Origin: Geodermatophilus sp. YIM 151500
Lineage (GTDB): Bacteria > Actinomycetota > Actinomycetes > Mycobacteriales > Geodermatophilaceae
Assembly: GCF_025716945.1 (NCBI RefSeq)
Contig: NZ_JAOVZT010000008.1
Location: 1-64,000 of the forward strand
Reading direction: 5' to 3'
Length of the DNA: 64,000 nt
A model generated the notes under the pieces. The model had not been told where the DNA came from, searched no databases, and saw only the letters and a list, made by a program, of their open reading frames with translations. A program made the position numbers and the translations under genes. The stretch's first letter is position 1; the number at the start of each line of letters is the position of its first letter. This document shows, in pieces, positions 8,478 through 62,977 of the stretch.

Positions 8478-9806
8478 TCAGCCGCCGTCCGCGGACGGCT
8501 CGACGGACCAGGCGAGCCGGAAACCGCTGAAGATCTGCCGCCGGTACGGGTGGTCCCAGTTGCGGAAGCTGGGCCGCAGGATGGCCGGGTCGACCGCCCA
8601 CGAGCCGCCGCGCAGCACGCGGTAGTCGCCGCCGAAGAACGGCGCCGAGTAGTCGGCGTAGAGCATCGGGACGAACCCCGGCCACGGCCGGAACGGTGAC
8701 GACGTCCACTCCCAGACGTCGCCCACCATCTGCTCGGCGCCGCACGCCGACGCCGATGCCGGGTAGGCGCCCACCGGCGCCGGGCGCAGCGCGTCGCCGC
8801 CGAGGTTGGCCAGGGACGGCGTCGGCTCGGCCGACCCCCACGGCCACCGCCGTCGCCGCCCGGCCGCCGGGTCCCAGACCGCCGCCTTCTCCCACTCCAC
8901 CTCGGTCGGCAGCCGGGCACCGGGCGGGACGACGCCGGTGCCGCCGGCCCACGCGGCGTAGGCCTCGGCCTCGAAGGAGGTGACGTGCTGGACCGGCTCG
9001 TCGGGCGGCAGCGGCTCGACGACGCCGAACCGCGTGCGCGTGCCGTCGACGCCCCAGAACTGCGGCCGGTCCAGCCCGGCCTCGCACCGCTGCGCCCAGC
9101 CGCGCGCCGACCACCACCGCGGGTCGGCGTACCCGCCGTCGGCGACGAACCGCGCGTACTCGGCGTTGGTCACGGGCACGCGGCCGATGCGGAAGGCGGG
9201 CACGTCGACCGGGTGCGCCGGCCGCTCGTTGTCCAGGGAGAACGGCTCGTCCGCCGGGTCGACACCGAGCACGAACGGGCCACCGGGCACGAGCACCGAC
9301 GTGCCCGCCACCCCGGGCCGGCCCGGCGGCAGCGGCGTCCCCGCGGCGAGCAGCGGCGGTCCGACCCGCAGGTTGAGCGCCTGCAGCATCGTCTCGTCGT
9401 GCTGCTGCTCGTGGCTGACCACCATGGCGAAGTCGAACGGGTCGCCGTCGTCGTCCGCCCCGAGCCGCTCCAGCCGGTCGAGCACCCGCCCGCGCACCTC
9501 GCGGCCGAAGGCCCGCGCCTCGACCGGCGGCAGCAGCGGCAGCCGCGCCCGGACCGCGCGGGGCTGGGTGAAGGCGTCGTACAGCGCCTCCACGTCGGGC
9601 GGCAGCAGCCCGGGCCGGCGGGCGTCGCCGCGGCGCAGCAGCCAGAGGTCCTCCTGCTGGCCGATGTGCGCGAGGTCCCAGACCAGCGGGCTCAGCAGCG
9701 GGGTGTGCTGGCGCAGCAGCTCCGGCTCGTCGTGGTCGGTGAGCCGCAGCGTCCGGTCGCGGGCGGTGGTCAGGTCGCGGGCGAGCCGCTCGCGGAGGTC
9801 GCTCAC
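8478..9806 (-). CDS. egtB: Hercynine oxygenase / sulfoxide synthase EgtB
   Basis: Non-haem iron enzyme of 442 residues that joins hercynine to gamma-glutamylcysteine with O2, forming the C-S bond and sulfoxide. An N-terminal DinB-type four-helix domain carries the iron ligands H47 ([12 protein letters not shown]), H132 and H136 (HEQQHDE). The C-terminal formylglycine-generating-enzyme-like domain spans about 190-440 and ends in typical [18 protein letters not shown] and [17 protein letters not shown] motifs. GTG at 9806 overlaps the egtA stop (GTGA). The gamma-glutamyl-dependent type fits the presence of egtA and egtC. Confidence 0.95.
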
Positions 9807-11071
9807 GGCAGCACCTGCGGGAGGTCGGTGGCGGCGGCGAGGACGGCGGCCGGACCGTCCCCACCGGCCCGCGCGAGGACGGCGTCCCCCGGGCTGCGCC
9901 CGGCGTGCACCAGGGCGGCGAGCGCGTCGACGTCCGGCTGCAGGGACGCCGGGACGGCGGGGCCGGCGGCGGCGAGGCAGGCGGTCGCCGCCCGGCGCAG
10001 GTCGCCGTCGGCCAGGCCGAGGCGGGCCGCACGGTCCCAGGCGCCGGGGACCGGCGCGGTCGCCACCCAGGCGCGGTCGGCGGCGCCGGGGTCGTCGAGC
10101 AGCGCGGTGGTCACCGCGGCCAGTGCCGGCCACCACGGCTCGGGGGTCGCGTCGAGGTAGCGGATCTCCAGGTAGCCGCGCAGCCGCACCGGCGGGAACA
10201 GCGTCGACAGGTGGTAGTCGAGGTCGGCCACCGTGGGCCGGCGGCCGCCCAGGCGCACTTCGCCCCGCACCCATTCCGCGAACGACGTGCGGGTGCGCAC
10301 CGGCTCGGCGCCCCCTCCGGGCCGGCGGACCAGCATCACCGGCGCGGCCAGCGCGTACGCCGCCCACTCCGCGGCCGGCTCGCCGCGGCCGAGCAGGGGG
10401 CCGCAGCGCGCCTGGTCCAGGTCGCCCCACACCTGCTGGCGGACCGACCGCCACCCGGACGGCCGCCCGGCCAGCCGCGGGGAGCAGGCCGACACGGCCA
10501 CCAGCACCGGACCGAGGCGGTGGGCGAGGGCCACGCGGTCACGCCAGCCGTCGGGCGGGCCGGCGTCGAGGTTGACCTGCAGCGCCGCCGTCGACGTCAT
10601 CATCGCCAGGCCTGCGGTGGGACAGCCGACGGCGGCGAAGTGCACCTCCATCGCGGCGTAGCGGGCGGCCGGGTTGACCCGCGCCGGGCGGCGCAGCGGA
10701 TCGCTCCCGAGCAGCGCGAGGGCCAGCCCGTCGCGGGCCAGCGCGGCGCCGAGGGCGGTCCGGTCGGCGCGCAGGGCGGCGACCGCGGCCGCGACGTCCG
10801 GGAACGGCGGGCCGGACAGCTCCACCTGCCCGCCGGGTTCCACGGTGATCCGGCTGCCGCAGGGCAGCGGGTCGACACCGGCGACGGCGGCCTGCACCCG
10901 CGGCCACGGCACGCGGCGCGCGGGCTCGGCCAGGTCGACCAGGTGGCCCTCCAGCTCGAGCCCGACCGGGCCGACCGCGCCCGGGTGCAGCGCGGTGCGG
11001 GCGACGTGGTCGGCGGTCGCGTCGACGTCGAGGGCGGGTGCCGCCACGGGGATCGGGGACAACGGGGCCAC
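9803..11071 (-). CDS. egtA: Glutamate-cysteine ligase EgtA
   Basis: ATP-dependent ligase of 422 residues in the actinobacterial/plant-type GCS2 family, which makes gamma-glutamylcysteine for EgtB. The [11 protein letters not shown] motif near residue 30, [24 protein letters not shown] and YLEIRYLDA match the family. GTG at 11071 sits close behind GGAGG; TTG at 11062 has better spacing (about 11 nt) and would shorten the protein by three residues. It is the first gene of the operon egtA-egtB-egtC-egtD-VTT. The 174 bp to the divergent DUF309 gene should hold its promoter. Confidence 0.92.
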
Positions 11072-55408: not shown

Positions 55409-55888
55409 ATGGCGATCACCGACGGCCGGCCCGACGGCTACACGACCCTGACCCCCTTCCTCGTCTGCGCGCCGGCCGCGGAGGCCATCCGGTTCTACGA
55501 GGAGGTCTTCGGCGCCACGACGGTCAGCCGGATGGACGGCCCCGACGGCACGGTGGTGCACGCGGAACTCGACTACGGCACCGGGCGGCTGCAGCTGGGT
55601 GACCCGAACGACGCGTACGGGCTGGCCGCTCCCACCGGGCACGCGGACGACCGGGTCAGCGGCTCGACCTGCATCTACGTGCCGGACGTCGACGCGGTGT
55701 TCGCCGCGGCCGTCGAACGCGGCGCCACGGTGCGGGAGAAGCCGAGCACCTTCGTCACCGGCGACCGCTTCGCGTCGATCTACGACCCGTTCGGGCACCG
55801 CTGGGCGGTGATGACCCGGGTCGAGGACGTCAGCCCGGAGGAGGCGGAACGGCGCCTGGCCGAGTGGGCGGAGTCGCGGGACGGGTGA
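55409..55888 (+). CDS. VOC (glyoxalase-like) protein
   Basis: Single VOC-domain protein of 159 residues (PhnB-like), with two beta-alpha-beta modules (TLTPFLVCAPAAEAIRFYEEVFGA and STCIYVPDVDAVFAAAVERGA) and the C-terminal YDPFGHRWAVMTRVEDVSPEE motif. Metal-binding role and substrate are unclear. ATG 55409; GTG 55403 is an alternative. Divergent from AraC, and its last 59 nt overlap the convergent larC. Confidence 0.88.
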   Translation: MAITDGRPDGYTTLTPFLVCAPAAEAIRFYEEVFGATTVSRMDGPDGTVVHAELDYGTGRLQLGDPNDAYGLAAPTGHADDRVSGSTCIYVPDVDAVFAAAVERGATVREKPSTFVTGDRFASIYDPFGHRWAVMTRVEDVSPEEAERRLAEWAESRDG

Positions 55889-57077
55889 CCTGGTCGTCGT
55901 CGCGGGCCACCGGGTAGGCCGACTCCGCGGCGGTCGTGGCGGCGCGCAGGGCCTCCTTGACCGGGACGCCGGCCTCCCGGGCCAATGCGGCGACGTCCTC
56001 GTACTCCACGCCCACGTTCAGCACGCGGCCTCCGGACGACGCCACCTTGACGCCGACCCGGCCGCCGAGCACCTCCACCGACGCCGTCGTGCGCTCCAGC
56101 GCCACCTTGCCCACCGGCAGCGTGCGCAGCCCGATCGTCGAGGTGTGCGCGAAGACCGTGGCGCGCACGCGCTCGACCGCCGCCGGGGAGCAGAGCACCG
56201 ACAGGGTGTGCGCCGGGCGGCCCTTCTTCATCAGGATCGGCGTCAGCCAGGCGTCCGAGGCGCCGGCCGCGAGCAGGGCGTCCAGCACGCCGGGCCACAG
56301 CCGCGGGTCGAGGTCGTCGACGTTGGCCTCCAGCACCACCGCCCCTGCCGCGCCGTCCCCGCCGGTCGGCTCGCCGAGCACCAGGCGCACGACGTTGGGC
56401 AGCTCGGCGGGGTCGCGGCCGCCGATGCCGACGCCCACCCGCTGCACCCGCATCCCCGGCAGGTCGGACCAGTCCGTCACGCTGGCGGCCAGCAGCGCCG
56501 CGCCGGTCGGGGTGCACATCTCGGCGGCGACCGGCCCGGCCAGCACCGGCACCCCGGTCAGCAGCTCGAGCACCGCAGGGCCGGGGATCGGCACCACGCC
56601 GTGCGCGCCGCGCGCCGACCCGCTGCCCAGCGCGATCGGCGAGGCGACCAGCCGGTCCAGCGCCAGGTGCGCCAGCCCCGCGACGACGCCCACCACGTCG
56701 GCCAGCGCGTCCAGCGCCCCCACCTCGTGGAAGTGCACGTCCTCGGCGGGCACCCGGTGCACCCGCCCCTCGGCGCGAGCCAACCGCGCGAAGACGTCCA
56801 GCGCGCCGTCCCGCACTGCGGCGTCCAGAGGCGCTCCGGTCAGCAGGGCCCGGACGTCGGCCCAGGTGCGCCGGACGTCGGACGCCGGCGCGTGCACCAC
56901 CACCCGCGTGCCGCCGAGGCCGTGCCGCGCGGCCGGCTCGGCCGACAGCGTGACCGGTTCGACGGGCAGCGCCGAGATGGCCGCCTGCAGCACGTCGAGC
57001 GGCACGCCGGCGTCCACGAGCGCGCCGAGCAGCATGTCCCCCGACGCGCCCGCGGACAGGTCCAGCCACGCGATCAC
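55830..57077 (-). CDS. larC: Nickel-pincer cofactor biosynthesis protein LarC
   Basis: Protein of 415 residues, a CTP-dependent nickel insertase that puts Ni into the pyridinium bis-thiocarboxylate mononucleotide cofactor. The N-terminal region has WLDLSAGASGDMLLGAL, DVHFHEVGALDALADVVG and the GSGSARGAHGVVPIPGPAVLELL block. The second half has EANVDDLDPRLWPGVLDALLAAGASDAWLTPILMKKGRPAH, all typical of LarC. GTG 57077 is the start. The LarB-like domain lies 229 bp upstream in the fusion gene; no larE or larA is present in the window. Its 3' end overlaps the VOC gene by 59 nt. Confidence 0.93.
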   Translation of the reverse strand: MIAWLDLSAGASGDMLLGALVDAGVPLDVLQAAISALPVEPVTLSAEPAARHGLGGTRVVVHAPASDVRRTWADVRALLTGAPLDAAVRDGALDVFARLARAEGRVHRVPAEDVHFHEVGALDALADVVGVVAGLAHLALDRLVASPIALGSGSARGAHGVVPIPGPAVLELLTGVPVLAGPVAAEMCTPTGAALLAASVTDWSDLPGMRVQRVGVGIGGRDPAELPNVVRLVLGEPTGGDGAAGAVVLEANVDDLDPRLWPGVLDALLAAGASDAWLTPILMKKGRPAHTLSVLCSPAAVERVRATVFAHTSTIGLRTLPVGKVALERTTASVEVLGGRVGVKVASSGGRVLNVGVEYEDVAALAREAGVPVKEALRAATTAAESAYPVARDDDQVTRPATPPTRPGAVPPPPG

Positions 57078-57097
57078 ATGGTCGTCCTACCGGACGA

Positions 57098-57293
57098 CAC
57101 CGCGATCAGGAGCCACCCCCCGCGCGCGGAGCCGCTCCCGTCACTCCTCGGGGGAGCCTGCGGCCCCCCGCTCGTCGCGACACCGCGATCAGGGGCCCCC
57201 GTCGCGCGGAGCCGTTCCCGTCACTCCTCGGGGGAGCCTCCGGCTCCCGCACGTCGCGACACCGCGATCAGGAGCCACCCCCCGCGCGAGCCC
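57098..57293. repeat. ~80-bp tandem repeat, about 2.4 units, dispersed family
   Basis: Units at 57098-57180 (83 bp), 57181-57259 (79 bp) and a partial at 57260-57293 each begin caccgcgatcagg. The first two also carry gcggagccg, then cactcctcgggggagcct, then cgtcgcga. Inside, cgggggagcctccgg(c)ccccg can fold. A diverged single copy lies at 14751-14806. It fills the spacer between larC and the fusion gene; no gene is supported there. Confidence 0.88.
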
Positions 57294-57306: not shown

Positions 57307-60138
57307 TCACCGGCGGGCGACCCGAGCGGCGAAGACGCCGGCCGACCAGCCGTCGTCCACCGCGGTCACCGCGACACCCGGCGCGGGCGACCCGAGCACG
57401 GCGAGCACCGCGCCCAGCCCGCCGAGCGCGCCCGGCGTGCCGGTCGAGGTCGGTACCGCCAGCACCGGCACGTCGGTGACCGTGCCGAGGAGGCCGGCCA
57501 GCGCGGCGTCCGCGCCGGTGACGACGACCAGGCAGTCGACCTCGGGCAGCAGCGTGCGGTCGGCCAGCAGCGCCGGCAGCCGGCCGCTCCCGGCGTCGAC
57601 GCGGACCACCTCGGTGCCGGCGACCCGGGCGACGAACGCGGTCTCCGCCGCGACCGGCGCGTCACCGGCCGTGCTGAGGACGGCGATCCGCCCGACCGGC
57701 TCGGGCACCGGCCCGACCGCGGCGGCCATCGCGGCGGCGTCCATCGTCGTGTACGCGTCGTGCTCGCCGGCGACCGCGACCAGCGTCTCGGGCGCGGCCC
57801 GCAGCACGACGGTCGGCCGGTGGGGGTGGTCCCGCCGGGCCTCGCGCACCAGCGCGAGCACCTGCTCGGTGCTGCGGCCGGTCCCCCAGACCACCTCGGG
57901 CTCGACCCGCGCCGGGCGCGACCGGTCCGCCGGGGCGGGGCGGTCGTCCCGGGCCGTCGCCCACGGCGGCAGCGGGCCGAGCAGCGGCTCACCCGGCCGG
58001 TCCGTGCCCAGCGGCGGGTCCACCGGCTCGACCAGCAGGGCGCCGAAGCCCCGGGCGTCGTCCGGGGGCAAGACCGTCCCGCGGAGCTCCTGCGGTGGCA
58101 CCTGCCCCGGCGCTGCAGGACCGGCCGCCCCCGTGCCGGCCGCCCCCGTGCCGGCCGCCCCCGTGCCGGCCGTTCCCGCACCTGACCTCCCGGTCTCGGC
58201 CGCTCCCGTGCCGGCCGTTCCCGGGTTGGTCGTCCCCGCGCCGGAGCCCGCGTCCGCGCCCGTCCGCGTCTGGGTCACCCCGGACAGCCGGACGACGCGG
58301 TCCCGCCCGCTGCGCTTGGCGTCGTACAGCACCCCGTCGGCGGCGGCGAACAGCGTGCGCCGGTCGTCGCCGCGGGCCGCCGACGCGATGCCGACGCTGA
58401 TCGTCACCGGCTCCGGCAACCCGAGGGCCGCCCAGTCGTGCGCGGCCAGCGCCCGGCGGCAGCGCTCCAGGGCCCGCTCGGCCTGCTCGGCGGTCGTGTC
58501 CGGGAGCAGGATGACGAACTCGTCGCCGGCCCAGCGGCACACCTCGTCGGTGTCGCGGCAGCCGGCCACGAGCACCTCGGCGACCCGGCGCAGCACCTCG
58601 TCGCCGCCGGGGTGGCCGATCGCGTCGTTGACCTCCTTGAACCGGTCGACGTCGACCACGGCCAGCGCCGGGGCGGCGCCGGTGGTCAGCAGCCCGTCGA
58701 GCCGTGCCTCGGCGTAGCGGCGGTTGGGCAGGTGGGTCAGCGGGTCCTCGTAGGCCTGCCGGCGCAGCTGCCCGGCGGCCCGCTCGGTCTCCAGCAGGTT
58801 CTTGCGGCGGTCGAACAGCTCCACCCAGCGGGTCCGCCGCTCGTCGACCCGGTCGAGTTCGTCGGCGAGGTAGGCCTGCAGGTAGGGCAGCGCGCGGCCG
58901 GCGTCGTCCAACTCGGCGTGCAGCGTGCACAGCTCGCGCAGCGCCGACCGGCGCAGCCGCGGCAGCCCGTGCTCGGTGGCCAGGTCGAGCGCCGCGGCCA
59001 GGTGCTCGTCGGCAGCGCCGGGGTCGCCCTGGCGGCGCAGCGCCCGGCCGAGCGCGAGGCGGGCGGAGGCGAGCAGGGCGCGGTCGTCGGCGGCGGTCGT
59101 CGCCCGCACGGCCTCGCGCAGCAGCCGTGCCGCGACGCGGTGCTCCTCCAGGCCGACCAGCGCCCAGCCGTGCACGACCAGGGCGGCGGCCCGCAGCGGC
59201 TCGTCGGCGCCGAGCAGCCCCAGCGCCCGCTCGGCCAGCGCGCGGGCCTCGGTGAAGTGCGACCGGGCCGCCTCCGGCGTCCCGTCGTCGAGCAGGCCCT
59301 CGCCCAGCTCCGCGCACAGCTCGCCGAGGCGGACCGCGGCGGTCGCGACCACCTGCCGCGGGTCGCCGTCCTCCGGCGCCCGCGGCCGTTCGGCCGCCGC
59401 CGTGGCGGCCAGCAGGGCCCGCCGCTGGTAGTCGAGGGCCAGCGGCATCAACTCGAGGTCGGCCAGGACGGCGGCCAGCGTGCCCAGCGTGTCGACGAGC
59501 AGCGGGCCGGGCTCCAGGCCCGGGTCGAGCAGGCTCGCCGCCTCGACGGCCTCGTCCATGGCCGCGTCGATGCGGCGGGAGAGCAGCTCGATCCGCGCGT
59601 GCCGGGCCAGCCCGGCGGCGCGCTGCAGGTCGTCGTCGGCGGCGTCGAAGGCGGCCTTCGCCGAGCGGACCAGCGCGATCGCCAGCGCCGCGCGGGAGGC
59701 CTGCTCGCCGCGGCCGTCGCCGTCGGTCCCGGTCCGCCCCGGGGTCCCCGGCGTCGGGGCCGCGGCGCCCGTGCTGCGGTCGATGAGGTCGGTGACCCCG
59801 GCGTGCAGGTCCAGGCCCGGCTCGTCGGCCTCGTCGACCGGATCGCCGACCAGGGTGAAACCGGCCAGCCGCAACCGCCGGACGAGCAGCTCGGCGCGGA
59901 GGGTGTCGGCCCACGCCCGGCCCAGCGTGCGCTGCGGGTCCCCGGCCGCCGGATCGGCGTCGGCGGTGTCGCTCCCGGGGTCCGGGACGACGTAGGGCGG
60001 CGGGAACCGCTCGACGTCGGCGAGCAGCTCCTCGGCGTCGTCCAGCCGCCAGTTCGCCAGCGCAGCGGTCACCCGCTGGTGCAGGGCTCCCGGTGGCACC
60101 AGCGCACTGTGCACGGCGTCCGATCGGGTGTCGAGCAC
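57307..60138 (-). CDS. TPR-GGDEF diguanylate cyclase fused to a LarB-like domain
   Basis: A single uninterrupted frame of 943 residues. The N-terminal 430 residues are helical repeats (TPR-like). The GGDEF domain covers about 455-615, with DVDRFKEVND, the active motif RWAGDEF at 535-541 (AGDEF variant) and an inhibitory RxxD site at R528-D531. A low-complexity linker (about 620-685, five-residue GTGAA repeats) leads to a LarB-like C terminus (about 740-943; EVVWGTGRSTEQVLALV, RIAVLSTAGDAPVAAETAFVARVAGTEV, DCLVVVTGADAALAGLLG, VPTSTGTPGALGG). In LarB the nucleophile cysteine follows in SCxPG; here the motif is GSPAPG with Pro at 918. GTG 60138 is the likeliest start. Confidence 0.82.
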   Translation of the reverse strand: MLDTRSDAVHSALVPPGALHQRVTAALANWRLDDAEELLADVERFPPPYVVPDPGSDTADADPAAGDPQRTLGRAWADTLRAELLVRRLRLAGFTLVGDPVDEADEPGLDLHAGVTDLIDRSTGAAAPTPGTPGRTGTDGDGRGEQASRAALAIALVRSAKAAFDAADDDLQRAAGLARHARIELLSRRIDAAMDEAVEAASLLDPGLEPGPLLVDTLGTLAAVLADLELMPLALDYQRRALLAATAAAERPRAPEDGDPRQVVATAAVRLGELCAELGEGLLDDGTPEAARSHFTEARALAERALGLLGADEPLRAAALVVHGWALVGLEEHRVAARLLREAVRATTAADDRALLASARLALGRALRRQGDPGAADEHLAAALDLATEHGLPRLRRSALRELCTLHAELDDAGRALPYLQAYLADELDRVDERRTRWVELFDRRKNLLETERAAGQLRRQAYEDPLTHLPNRRYAEARLDGLLTTGAAPALAVVDVDRFKEVNDAIGHPGGDEVLRRVAEVLVAGCRDTDEVCRWAGDEFVILLPDTTAEQAERALERCRRALAAHDWAALGLPEPVTISVGIASAARGDDRRTLFAAADGVLYDAKRSGRDRVVRLSGVTQTRTGADAGSGAGTTNPGTAGTGAAETGRSGAGTAGTGAAGTGAAGTGAAGPAAPGQVPPQELRGTVLPPDDARGFGALLVEPVDPPLGTDRPGEPLLGPLPPWATARDDRPAPADRSRPARVEPEVVWGTGRSTEQVLALVREARRDHPHRPTVVLRAAPETLVAVAGEHDAYTTMDAAAMAAAVGPVPEPVGRIAVLSTAGDAPVAAETAFVARVAGTEVVRVDAGSGRLPALLADRTLLPEVDCLVVVTGADAALAGLLGTVTDVPVLAVPTSTGTPGALGGLGAVLAVLGSPAPGVAVTAVDDGWSAGVFAARVARR
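58121..58180. repeat. 15-bp in-frame tandem repeat in the GGDEF-LarB linker
   Basis: The plus-strand unit ccggccgcccccgtg occurs at 58121-58135, 58136-58150 and 58151-58165, with a diverged fourth at 58166-58180. On the coding strand it encodes GTGAA repeats, so changes in copy number keep the reading frame and only alter linker length. Confidence 0.85.
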
Positions 60139-60200: not shown

Positions 60201-61922
60201 TCACGCGGGCGTCCCGCCGGCCGACCGGTCGTCGTCGGGGGCGGCGCCCGGCGCGCGGACGCGGTTGCGGCCGCTGCGCTTGGCGGAGAAGAGGTGCAGG
60301 TCGGCGGCGTCGAACAGCGCCCGCCAGCTCGCCACCGGCGGCGCCCCACCGGCGACGGCCGGAGCGGTCGCCACCCCGATGCTGACGGTCACCGGCTCGG
60401 GCAGCCGCAGGTCGCTCCAGTCGGCGCCGGCGACGGCGGTGCGCAGCCGCTCCATGACCCCGACGGCCTGGGGTTCGGTCGCCGTCGGCAGGACGACGAG
60501 GAACTCGTCCCCGGCCCAGCGGAACACCTCGTCGCCGGCGCGGCTGTGCTCGAGCAGCAGATCGGCGACCCGGCGCAGCACGACGTCGCCCGAGGTGTGC
60601 GAGCCGCCGTCGTTGACCTCCTTGAAGCGGTCGACGTCGACGACGGCCAGCGACAGCGGCTCCTCGCCCAGCCGCAGCGAGGTCAGGCGGCGCTCGGCGC
60701 TGCGCCGGTTGCCCAGGCCGGTGAGCGGGTCCTCGAGGGCGTGCTGGCGCAGCAGTGCGGTCTGCCGCTCGGCCTCGCGCAGCCGGCTGCGGCGCACGAA
60801 CATCTCGGCCCACAGCTGGCGGCTGTGCGCGTGCGCGCGCCGGGTGTCGGCGCGATAGGCCTCCAGCCAGTGCAGCGCCTCCGCGGGACGGCCCTGCGCG
60901 GCCGTCACCTGGCCGAGCTCGAGCAGGCACTGGCGGTGGCGGCGGCGATCACCGGCGACCACGAAGGCGGACGCGGCGTCGACCATCAGCTGCACCGCCT
61001 CCTCGCCGGTGGCCGGTTCGTCGTCGCGGGCGGCCAGCCGGACCAGCAGCCGGGCGAGCACCAGGTCGGTGAGGCCGCGCAGCCAGAGGGTGCCCTCCTC
61101 GTGCACCCGGCGACGCGACCGGCGCAGCGGGCCGAGCGCGTCGTCGAGCTCGTCGCGGCAGGTGAGCGCCCACGCCTGGACGACGTCGAGCAGGTCGGCG
61201 GGCCCCGGTTCGGGCTCCCACGGCAGTGCGCGGGCGGCGGTGGCCTGGTCGACGGCGGCGCGGGCCAGCTCGCGGGCCCGCTCGTGCTCGCCGCGGCGGT
61301 GCAGCGTCTGGGCCAGCTCGGCGTGCTGCTGGGCGGAGAGCAGCAGCATCCGCCAGCGGTCTCCGGGGTCGGGCAGGGCCAGGGCGACACCGTGCCCGCG
61401 GTCGGCGTGCACGACCGCCAGCTCCTCGAGGTCGAGCGCGGCGAGGGTGAATGACAGCCAGCGGTGCGCCTGCAGCAGCGCGCGGGAGGCCTGAGCCGGG
61501 GTGAAGCTCTCGGTGAGCAGGCTCGAGTCGACGGCCAGCAGCATCGCCGCGTCGGCGTGGTCGGCGGTGACCTCGACGTGCGCCAGCCAGGCCAGCACCA
61601 GCGCGTTGTCCGCGGTCGGCGAACAGCCGTCGAGGGCCTCCCGGGCGGCGGTCACCTCCGCCGATGCGGCCTGGGCGTCGGCCTCGACCAGCAGCCGCCG
61701 CGCGGCCAGGGCGTGCCGCCAGGCGGTGCGCCCGGCGGCGGCGTCGGCGTCCCGCCCGGTGCCGGCCGGCTCCGGCTGCGCGGTACCGGCGTCGAGCTCC
61801 TCCTGCGCCGCGTCGAGCAGCGCGAGGTACGCCGGGACGTCCTCGCTGTCGCCCGCGGCGAGCAGACGCCACAGCGCAGCCTCCGGGTCACCCTCGGTGA
61901 CTCGAGCCGGGCGGGCGATCAC
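60201..61922 (-). CDS. TPR-GGDEF diguanylate cyclase, paralogue of its downstream neighbour
   Basis: Soluble protein of 573 residues. Helical TPR-like repeats run to about 390 (RHALAARRLLVEADAQ, RARELARAAVDQATAARALP, ALHWLEAYRAD), then a short coiled linker, then a GGDEF domain at about 395-560. The motif is RWAGDEF (A470-F474), preceded by a canonical RxxD I-site at R461-D464, with AVVDVDRFKEVND for metal and substrate binding. It should make cyclic-di-GMP with product inhibition. GTG 61922 is supported by GGAGG 5 nt upstream. The next gene (the LarB fusion) starts 62 nt after its stop. Confidence 0.9.
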   Translation of the reverse strand: MIARPARVTEGDPEAALWRLLAAGDSEDVPAYLALLDAAQEELDAGTAQPEPAGTGRDADAAAGRTAWRHALAARRLLVEADAQAASAEVTAAREALDGCSPTADNALVLAWLAHVEVTADHADAAMLLAVDSSLLTESFTPAQASRALLQAHRWLSFTLAALDLEELAVVHADRGHGVALALPDPGDRWRMLLLSAQQHAELAQTLHRRGEHERARELARAAVDQATAARALPWEPEPGPADLLDVVQAWALTCRDELDDALGPLRRSRRRVHEEGTLWLRGLTDLVLARLLVRLAARDDEPATGEEAVQLMVDAASAFVVAGDRRRHRQCLLELGQVTAAQGRPAEALHWLEAYRADTRRAHAHSRQLWAEMFVRRSRLREAERQTALLRQHALEDPLTGLGNRRSAERRLTSLRLGEEPLSLAVVDVDRFKEVNDGGSHTSGDVVLRRVADLLLEHSRAGDEVFRWAGDEFLVVLPTATEPQAVGVMERLRTAVAGADWSDLRLPEPVTVSIGVATAPAVAGGAPPVASWRALFDAADLHLFSAKRSGRNRVRAPGAAPDDDRSAGGTPA

Positions 61923-62041
61923 GCGTTCCTCCAGACGACGGTGGGCCGGCCGTGCGGCCGGAACTGCCGACAGCGAGGCAGCCTCCCCCGGGTGAGGACC
62001 CCGCCCCGACCCGCCCGCACTACCCTCGCCGGGTGCGCGGA

Positions 62042-62977
62042 ATGCCGACCAGCACGCCACCGACGCGGTTCGCCTATCTCGGGCCCGAGGGTACCTTCGC
62101 CGAAGCGGCCCTCCGCAGCGTCGCTGCCTCCTCGGAGGGAGCGCGGTACCCCCAGCCGAGTGTGGCCGCGGCGCTGTCCGCCGTCCGGTCGGGTGACGCC
62201 GACGCCGCCCTCGTGCCGCTGGAGAACTCGATCGAGGGCTCGGTACCGGCGACCATGGACGGCCTGGCCGACGGTGACCCGCTGGTCATCACCCGCGAGG
62301 TCTTCCTCACCGTCGAGCTGACGCTGGCCGCGCGGCCGGGGATGGCGCTCGACGACGTCCGCACCGTGGTCTCGCACCCGCACGCGCTGGCGCAGGCCGC
62401 CGGGTGGCTGGCCGGGCACGGCCTGGCGACCCTGCCGACCGGCTCCACCGCGGCCGCCGCGCGCGCGGTGGCCGACGGCGAGCACGACGCCGCCGTCTGC
62501 GCGCCCATCGCCGCGGAGCGCTACGGCCTGATCCGCCTGGTCGACGACGTCGCCGACCACCGGGGAGCGGTCACCCGGTTCGTGCTGGTGACCCCGCCGG
62601 GCCCGCTCCGACCGCCCACCGGCAACGACAAGACCTCGCTGGTCGCGGTCGTCGGCGACCGGACGGGCGCGCTGCTGTCGCTGCTGTCGGAGTTCGCCGT
62701 CCGCGGCATCTCGCTGACCCGCATCGAGTCGCGACCGACCCGCGAGCGGCTCGGCGTCTACTCCTTCTCCCTCGACTGCGAGGGGCACGTGGCCGACCGG
62801 CGGGTGGGGGAGGCGCTGGCCGCGCTGCACCGGGTCTGCGACGACGTCCGTTTCCTCGGCTCCTACGCGCGCGCCGACGGACGGGAGAACAAGCCGGTTC
62901 CCCCGGACGCCGACGACGCGGCCTTCGCCGACGCCGAGGCCTGGCTGCGCCGGTTGCGCGAGGGCTCATCGGGCTGA
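62042..62977 (+). CDS. pheA: Prephenate dehydratase
   Basis: Enzyme of 311 residues converting prephenate to phenylpyruvate for phenylalanine synthesis. The PDT domain covers about 12-190 (YLGPEGTFAEAAL, ALVPLENSIEGSV, GAVTRFVLV with the catalytic Thr), and a C-terminal ACT domain at about 200-280 carries the ESRPTR motif for phenylalanine feedback binding. ATG 62042 was chosen; GTG 62033 is possible. There is no fused chorismate mutase. It is divergent from the GGDEF gene. Confidence 0.95.
   Translation: MPTSTPPTRFAYLGPEGTFAEAALRSVAASSEGARYPQPSVAAALSAVRSGDADAALVPLENSIEGSVPATMDGLADGDPLVITREVFLTVELTLAARPGMALDDVRTVVSHPHALAQAAGWLAGHGLATLPTGSTAAAARAVADGEHDAAVCAPIAAERYGLIRLVDDVADHRGAVTRFVLVTPPGPLRPPTGNDKTSLVAVVGDRTGALLSLLSEFAVRGISLTRIESRPTRERLGVYSFSLDCEGHVADRRVGEALAALHRVCDDVRFLGSYARADGRENKPVPPDADDAAFADAEAWLRRLREGSSG

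Follow-up and report, generated by a model that had tools for sequence, protein, structure and literature searches.

The window, a 64,000-nucleotide stretch of the genome of Geodermatophilus sp. YIM 151500, contains a gene that joins a GGDEF diguanylate cyclase, in a single frame, to a C-terminal domain with the predicted fold of the nickel-pincer biosynthesis enzyme LarB. We infer, with a probability of about 0.6, that this C-terminal domain (pseudo-LarB) stems from an ancestral larB-larC operon and regulates the cyclase to which it is attached, by nucleotide binding or by oligomerisation. This suggests that an old nickel-cofactor enzyme has been recycled to regulate a signalling protein of which it is now a part, and no longer makes cofactor.

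Organization and conservation of the fusion gene

The fusion gene (57307..60138, (-) strand, as are the genes, domains and motifs of the window given below) consists of a single frame of 943 codons and one terminal stop (translation of 60138-57307), and encodes a TPR-like sensor, a GGDEF diguanylate cyclase, a linker and the pseudo-LarB domain. It starts with GTG at 60138, and an alignment of the start region places this codon at the same position in most of 19 relatives. The helical repeat (TPR-like) region (residues about 140–460, 58759..59721) was delimited by a profile match and predicted helices, and its long end helix enters the GGDEF domain. The match to MalT-like TPR repeats (residues 291–422) is weak and under the gathering score; in the predicted full-length structure the N-terminal helices have high pLDDT starting near residue 210. 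The GGDEF domain (residues 462–614, 58297..58755) scores 129.6 bits against PF00990, above the gathering score of 23.8 bits. Its [AG]GDEF A-site signature and RxxD I-site are intact in the window (RDTDEVCRWAGDEF), as had been noted for this gene beforehand, and conserved in relatives: in the A-site motif AGDEF (58516..58530) the residues AGDE, and in the I-site motif RDTD (58546..58557) the arginine and the last aspartate, are invariant among 50 fusions.

The linker (residues 615–744, 57907..58296) is predicted to be disordered (pLDDT <50 at residues 620–742) and contains a 15-bp tandem repeat (58121-58217); linkers of the fusions are composed of 21% Pro and 19% Ala. The window's linker also carries a GFxxLL motif (58033..58050), of which Phe698 is invariant and Gly697, Leu701 and Leu702 are near-invariant in the 50 fusions. 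The pseudo-LarB domain (residues 745–943, 57310..57906) completes the protein. The full-length model begins with a helical N-terminal half, from which a long helix leads to the GGDEF domain; disorder at about 620–742 and a folded C-terminal domain follow, with no confident contact between domains (pTM 0.45).

Upstream lies a paralogous GGDEF gene (60201..62060), in which AGDEF and RxxD are both intact; in each of the 19 genomes examined it lies directly before the fusion, the two genes forming a tandem. The next gene downstream is larC, encoding the nickel insertion protein (55830..57077; PF01969, 429 bits; also TIGR00299 and NF052512), so that the adjacency to larC described earlier is right. 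Between the fusion stop and larC, an 80-bp unit is present in 2.5 tandem copies (57095-57292); the core of this unit has no other occurrence within the window. In another genome (G018; L024, around 9037-10202) larC is found in two frames, either because of a frameshift or because this LarC is made in two parts, as other LarCs are known to be.

A long open frame is by itself weak evidence in high-GC DNA, and we therefore judged the fusion by its relatives. The cyclase and the LarB-like domain occupy one open frame in 18 Geodermatophilaceae genomes, where the fusion is preceded by the upstream GGDEF gene and often followed by larC. A genome scan yielded 80 loci, virtually all of them from Geodermatophilaceae (Blastococcus, Geodermatophilus, Modestobacter, Klenkia, Goekera, Trujillonella and MAGs); a single locus comes from a record labelled Bacillus and marked as unverified. 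At all 74 loci having enough upstream sequence, a set that overlaps with the 18 relatives, the two domains share a frame without an intervening stop, and the linkers, 204–522 nt long and of about fifty different lengths, are each divisible by three. A shared frame is therefore the normal state, and an assembly slip can be ruled out for the window, which confirms the one-frame fusion of the preliminary description. The low-complexity, high-GC linker with its tandem repeat is the kind of sequence in which an assembly or sequencing artefact might have joined two genes, but the same fusion recurs in many independently sequenced genomes; the relatives already refute an artefact, and we consider its probability negligible. 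Relatives with two genes parted by a stop, the arrangement that had been set against a fusion beforehand, were not found, the exceptions being two genomes (G083 and G116) whose linker length is not divisible by three, and one (G105) with a stop right before the contig end. In G083 and G116 the break in the frame falls within low-complexity sequence beyond the GFxxLL motif and may be a real change or a sequencing error. A separate internal start for LarB, also raised earlier, is generally unlikely, given that several relatives contain no ATG, GTG or TTG from the GFxxLL motif to the domain; this candidate was rejected as no start codon is conserved among relatives.

Outside Geodermatophilaceae no LarB fusions were evident: an order-wide search gave shorter LarB frames or unexamined ones, and in an actinobacteria-wide sample the LarB frames among the matches listed were of at most 564 codons. 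In the open-access papers that we searched, a scope outside which most subscription papers fall, we found no description of this fusion architecture, and no pairing of GGDEF with LarB, of nickel-pincer with c-di-GMP or of AIR carboxylase with GGDEF. Within this scope, we regard the protein as a cyclase whose accessory domain is new.

The LarB fold and its active-site residues

The LarB profile NF033503 matches the C-terminal domain over almost its full length (residues 738–942) with 113–117 bits, against a curated cut-off of 175; the other fused copies score 61–172 bits, all under this cut-off. Modeled alone with AlphaFold2, the domain reaches a mean pLDDT of 84, and the solved structures that match the model best are without exception LarB chains (7mj2/7mj0, TM 0.79/0.84, E 3e-15). 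In this model the LarB/PurE-like fold is present. Comparison with viral predicted structures gave nothing useful.

Active-site positions were compared in an alignment of 98 fused copies and 33 free-standing LarBs, numbered according to L. plantarum LarB (7mj0). Cys221 is present in all 33 free-standing LarBs and absent from all 98 fused copies; in the window its position is taken by Pro918 (57385..57387). LarB chemistry reportedly proceeds via a cysteinyl-pyridine intermediate, going by the title of a 2021 article by Rankin and co-workers, and we take Cys221 to be the cysteine of this intermediate, which agrees with its invariance. In 97 of the 98 fused copies Lys57 has become Arg, and in almost all of them Ser127 has become Gly or Ala; V154-A155-G156, H158-R159 and Y204-G205 are lost. 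The window differs at every one of K57, S127, G156, H158, R159 and Y204, positions that are changed in most fused copies as well. D128, E134, P199-T200-S201, D231 and G233, which are structural and phosphate/ribose-side positions, are kept, and R57, A69, R156 and A181 have become fixed as residues specific to the fused copies. Such a combination of kept and newly fixed positions looks more like a change of role than like plain decay.

Judged by these residues, the LarB-like domain looks catalytically dead and cannot plausibly carry out LarB chemistry. Of the earlier assignment as a LarB-like domain, the fold and the homology thus stand, and the function as pincer-precursor enzyme does not, the domain being diverged and the catalytic cysteine gone. 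This calls for caution in annotation, as fused proteins can be labelled LarB yet are very probably unable to make the cofactor.

The nickel-pincer pathway and the origin of the fusion

In the nickel-pincer pathway, LarB converts NaAD into the precursor, LarE supplies the sulphur and LarC inserts the nickel (PMC11796402). The genome of the window encodes a canonical LarB beside larE on another contig. Canonical LarB occurs in 75 and LarE in 73 of 115 Geodermatophilaceae genomes; the fused domain occurs in about 104 of the 115 (tally from lists). Nine genomes from three small genera are without the fused domain and have canonical LarB instead, and an incomplete MAG (G122) has a canonical LarB copy only. 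Forty family genomes lack canonical LarB: the fused domain is kept in 39, and in the fortieth (G105) the cyclase is kept and is cut at the contig end. Among 25 genomes analyzed in detail, six (G001, G003, G004, G013, G020 and G022) have kept the fusion with canonical larB, larE, larC and LarA all absent. As the fusion persists in genomes without the pathway, the fused domain is independent of it.

The preliminary description had considered that cofactor synthesis is signal-controlled, that is, that the domain is an active LarB whose synthesis of the pincer precursor is governed by c-di-GMP or by the sensor of the cyclase. The position of larC directly after the fusion in many genomes favors such a link, but it is contradicted by the loss of most active-site residues and of Cys221 from every fused copy, by the canonical larB-larE elsewhere, and by the 39 genomes in which the fusion persists without canonical LarB, in some of them with the whole pathway gone. 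We regard an active LarB as extremely improbable, the residues and the pathway-less genomes ruling it out.

Some further observations concern the canonical pathway. In the genome of the window, larB, larC and larE are present and LarA (PF09861) was not found, as was the case in 20 of 25 family genomes examined; NPN pathways lacking LarA have been described in about 15% of genomes (PMC11796402). In one genus of Geodermatophilaceae (g6), a canonical LarB that has kept the catalytic Cys carries a C-terminal NUDIX domain in frame (L050:3829-5013 (+) and L051:4447-5616 (-); Pfam NUDIX, 53–60 bits), and this extension is absent from two further genomes of the genus (L052 and L164).

A tree built from 52 LarB sequences places the fused domains in a single clade with a support of 100/100, which indicates one origin of the fusion, and the larE-linked LarBs form another group; the tree has a midpoint root only and does not fix the nearest free-standing LarB. 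The fused domain is 46–50% identical to LarBs from larB-larC operons, compared with about 38–44% for most larE-linked LarBs, and free larB-larC operons are present in relatives. In addition, the GFxxLL motif of the linker is similar to LGFARLD, a motif at the N-terminus of free LarBs, and is probably a remnant of it. Taken together with larC downstream of the fusion, the identity to operon LarBs and the GFxxLL motif suggest that the cyclase gene acquired its LarB-like part by capturing a larB-larC operon. An ortholog of the TPR region was found neither in nine fusion-less family genomes nor in ten relatives from the order, so the pre-fusion state was not seen; likewise, the search of these genomes for a tail-less cyclase as ancestral state did not find the unfused arrangement.

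Selection and the proposed role of pseudo-LarB

In pairwise counts pooled over eleven pairs, pN/pS was lowest in the GGDEF domain (0.18), similar in the TPR region (0.34) and the LarB-like domain (0.36), and far higher in the linker (0.76). The LarB-like domain (dN/dS 0.05–0.48 across pairs) is under purifying selection, and is constrained as a protein about as much as the sensor half; the linker drifts in sequence yet stays in frame. Pairs that include the window copy are less constrained (dN/dS 0.39–0.42), and the copies of the window and of G002 have the longest branches among the fused domains (0.47 and 0.7) as well as small deletions. The genome of the window is therefore not the best representative, and constraint may be loosening in its copy.

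All cyclase motifs are present, and the fusion is therefore likely to synthesize c-di-GMP with feedback through the I-site. For the C-terminal domain, the best reading of the sequences is the other option raised earlier, in which a LarB fold would serve as a nucleotide sensor that controls the cyclase. In the model that we propose, an ancestral larB-larC operon would have lain downstream of the cyclase gene and larB would have been joined in frame, N-terminal GFA motif included, with a second larB, paired with larE, retaining the enzyme function. On its flexible linker, pseudo-LarB would then most likely serve as regulatory domain for the cyclase: its old active-site cleft might still bind a nicotinate or adenine nucleotide, or the domain might assemble into a LarB/PurE-like oligomer, and in either way would set GGDEF dimerisation or local concentration and thus the c-di-GMP output. 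A more specific version, in which a LarB-type nucleotide (NaAD, NAD or a nickel-pincer precursor) would bind to the dead LarB, stay unreacted and switch the cyclase, and in which the state of the nicotinate nucleotides would thus be translated into the c-di-GMP level across the family, is put forward tentatively, as a possibility to which we assign clearly less than even odds.

LarB and PurE proteins are oligomers and GGDEF enzymes require two GGDEF domains face to face, so that pseudo-LarB might act purely as an assembly scaffold that brings the GGDEF domains together without any ligand. The retention of the fold with loss of the active-site residues would fit this explanation, but the conserved or refixed cleft positions (R57, R156, D128 and the PTS motif) would be needless for a pure scaffold, and we consider it doubtful, at about one chance in a few. 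The missing catalytic residues, together with the two frameshifted linkers and the long branches and deletions of the window and G002 copies, could also be expected if larB had been trapped by loss of a stop and were now a functionless tail in slow and harmless decay. Against this stand the low dN/dS across most pairs, the retention of the domain in nearly the whole family and the fixation of fused-specific positions; moreover, decay throughout the family should give many broken copies. We therefore hold a functionless tail to be improbable and favor regulation of the cyclase by pseudo-LarB.

Geodermatophilaceae are soil and rock bacteria with an extreme, stress-tolerant lifestyle. The fusion is a candidate nicotinate-nucleotide input to c-di-GMP signalling in this family, in which RsiG, a twin-motif c-di-GMP-binding anti-sigma factor, occurs in 16 of 16 species examined (PMC8325347).

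Compared with known systems, the C-terminal domain shares with LarB (pyridinium-3,5-biscarboxylic acid mononucleotide synthase; 7mj0, 7mj1, 7mj2; NF033503) the fold, homology over the full catalytic domain and, often, larC as the next gene. It differs from LarB in being joined to a cyclase, in scoring under the curated cut-off, in lacking Cys221 and most invariant active-site residues, and in being kept in pathway-less genomes. The fusion resembles GGDEF diguanylate cyclases with N-terminal sensors (PF00990) in its N-terminal helical sensor and in a complete GGDEF domain that includes both the AGDEF A-site and the RxxD I-site; to these it adds the C-terminal pseudo-LarB. Pseudoenzyme regulatory domains occur in signalling proteins as a general concept, and here likewise an enzyme fold without its catalytic residues stands beside a signalling enzyme. 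We know of no such domain derived from LarB; if the proposed role is true, this would be, to our knowledge, the first case in which an enzyme of nickel-pincer biosynthesis has been turned into a signalling domain.
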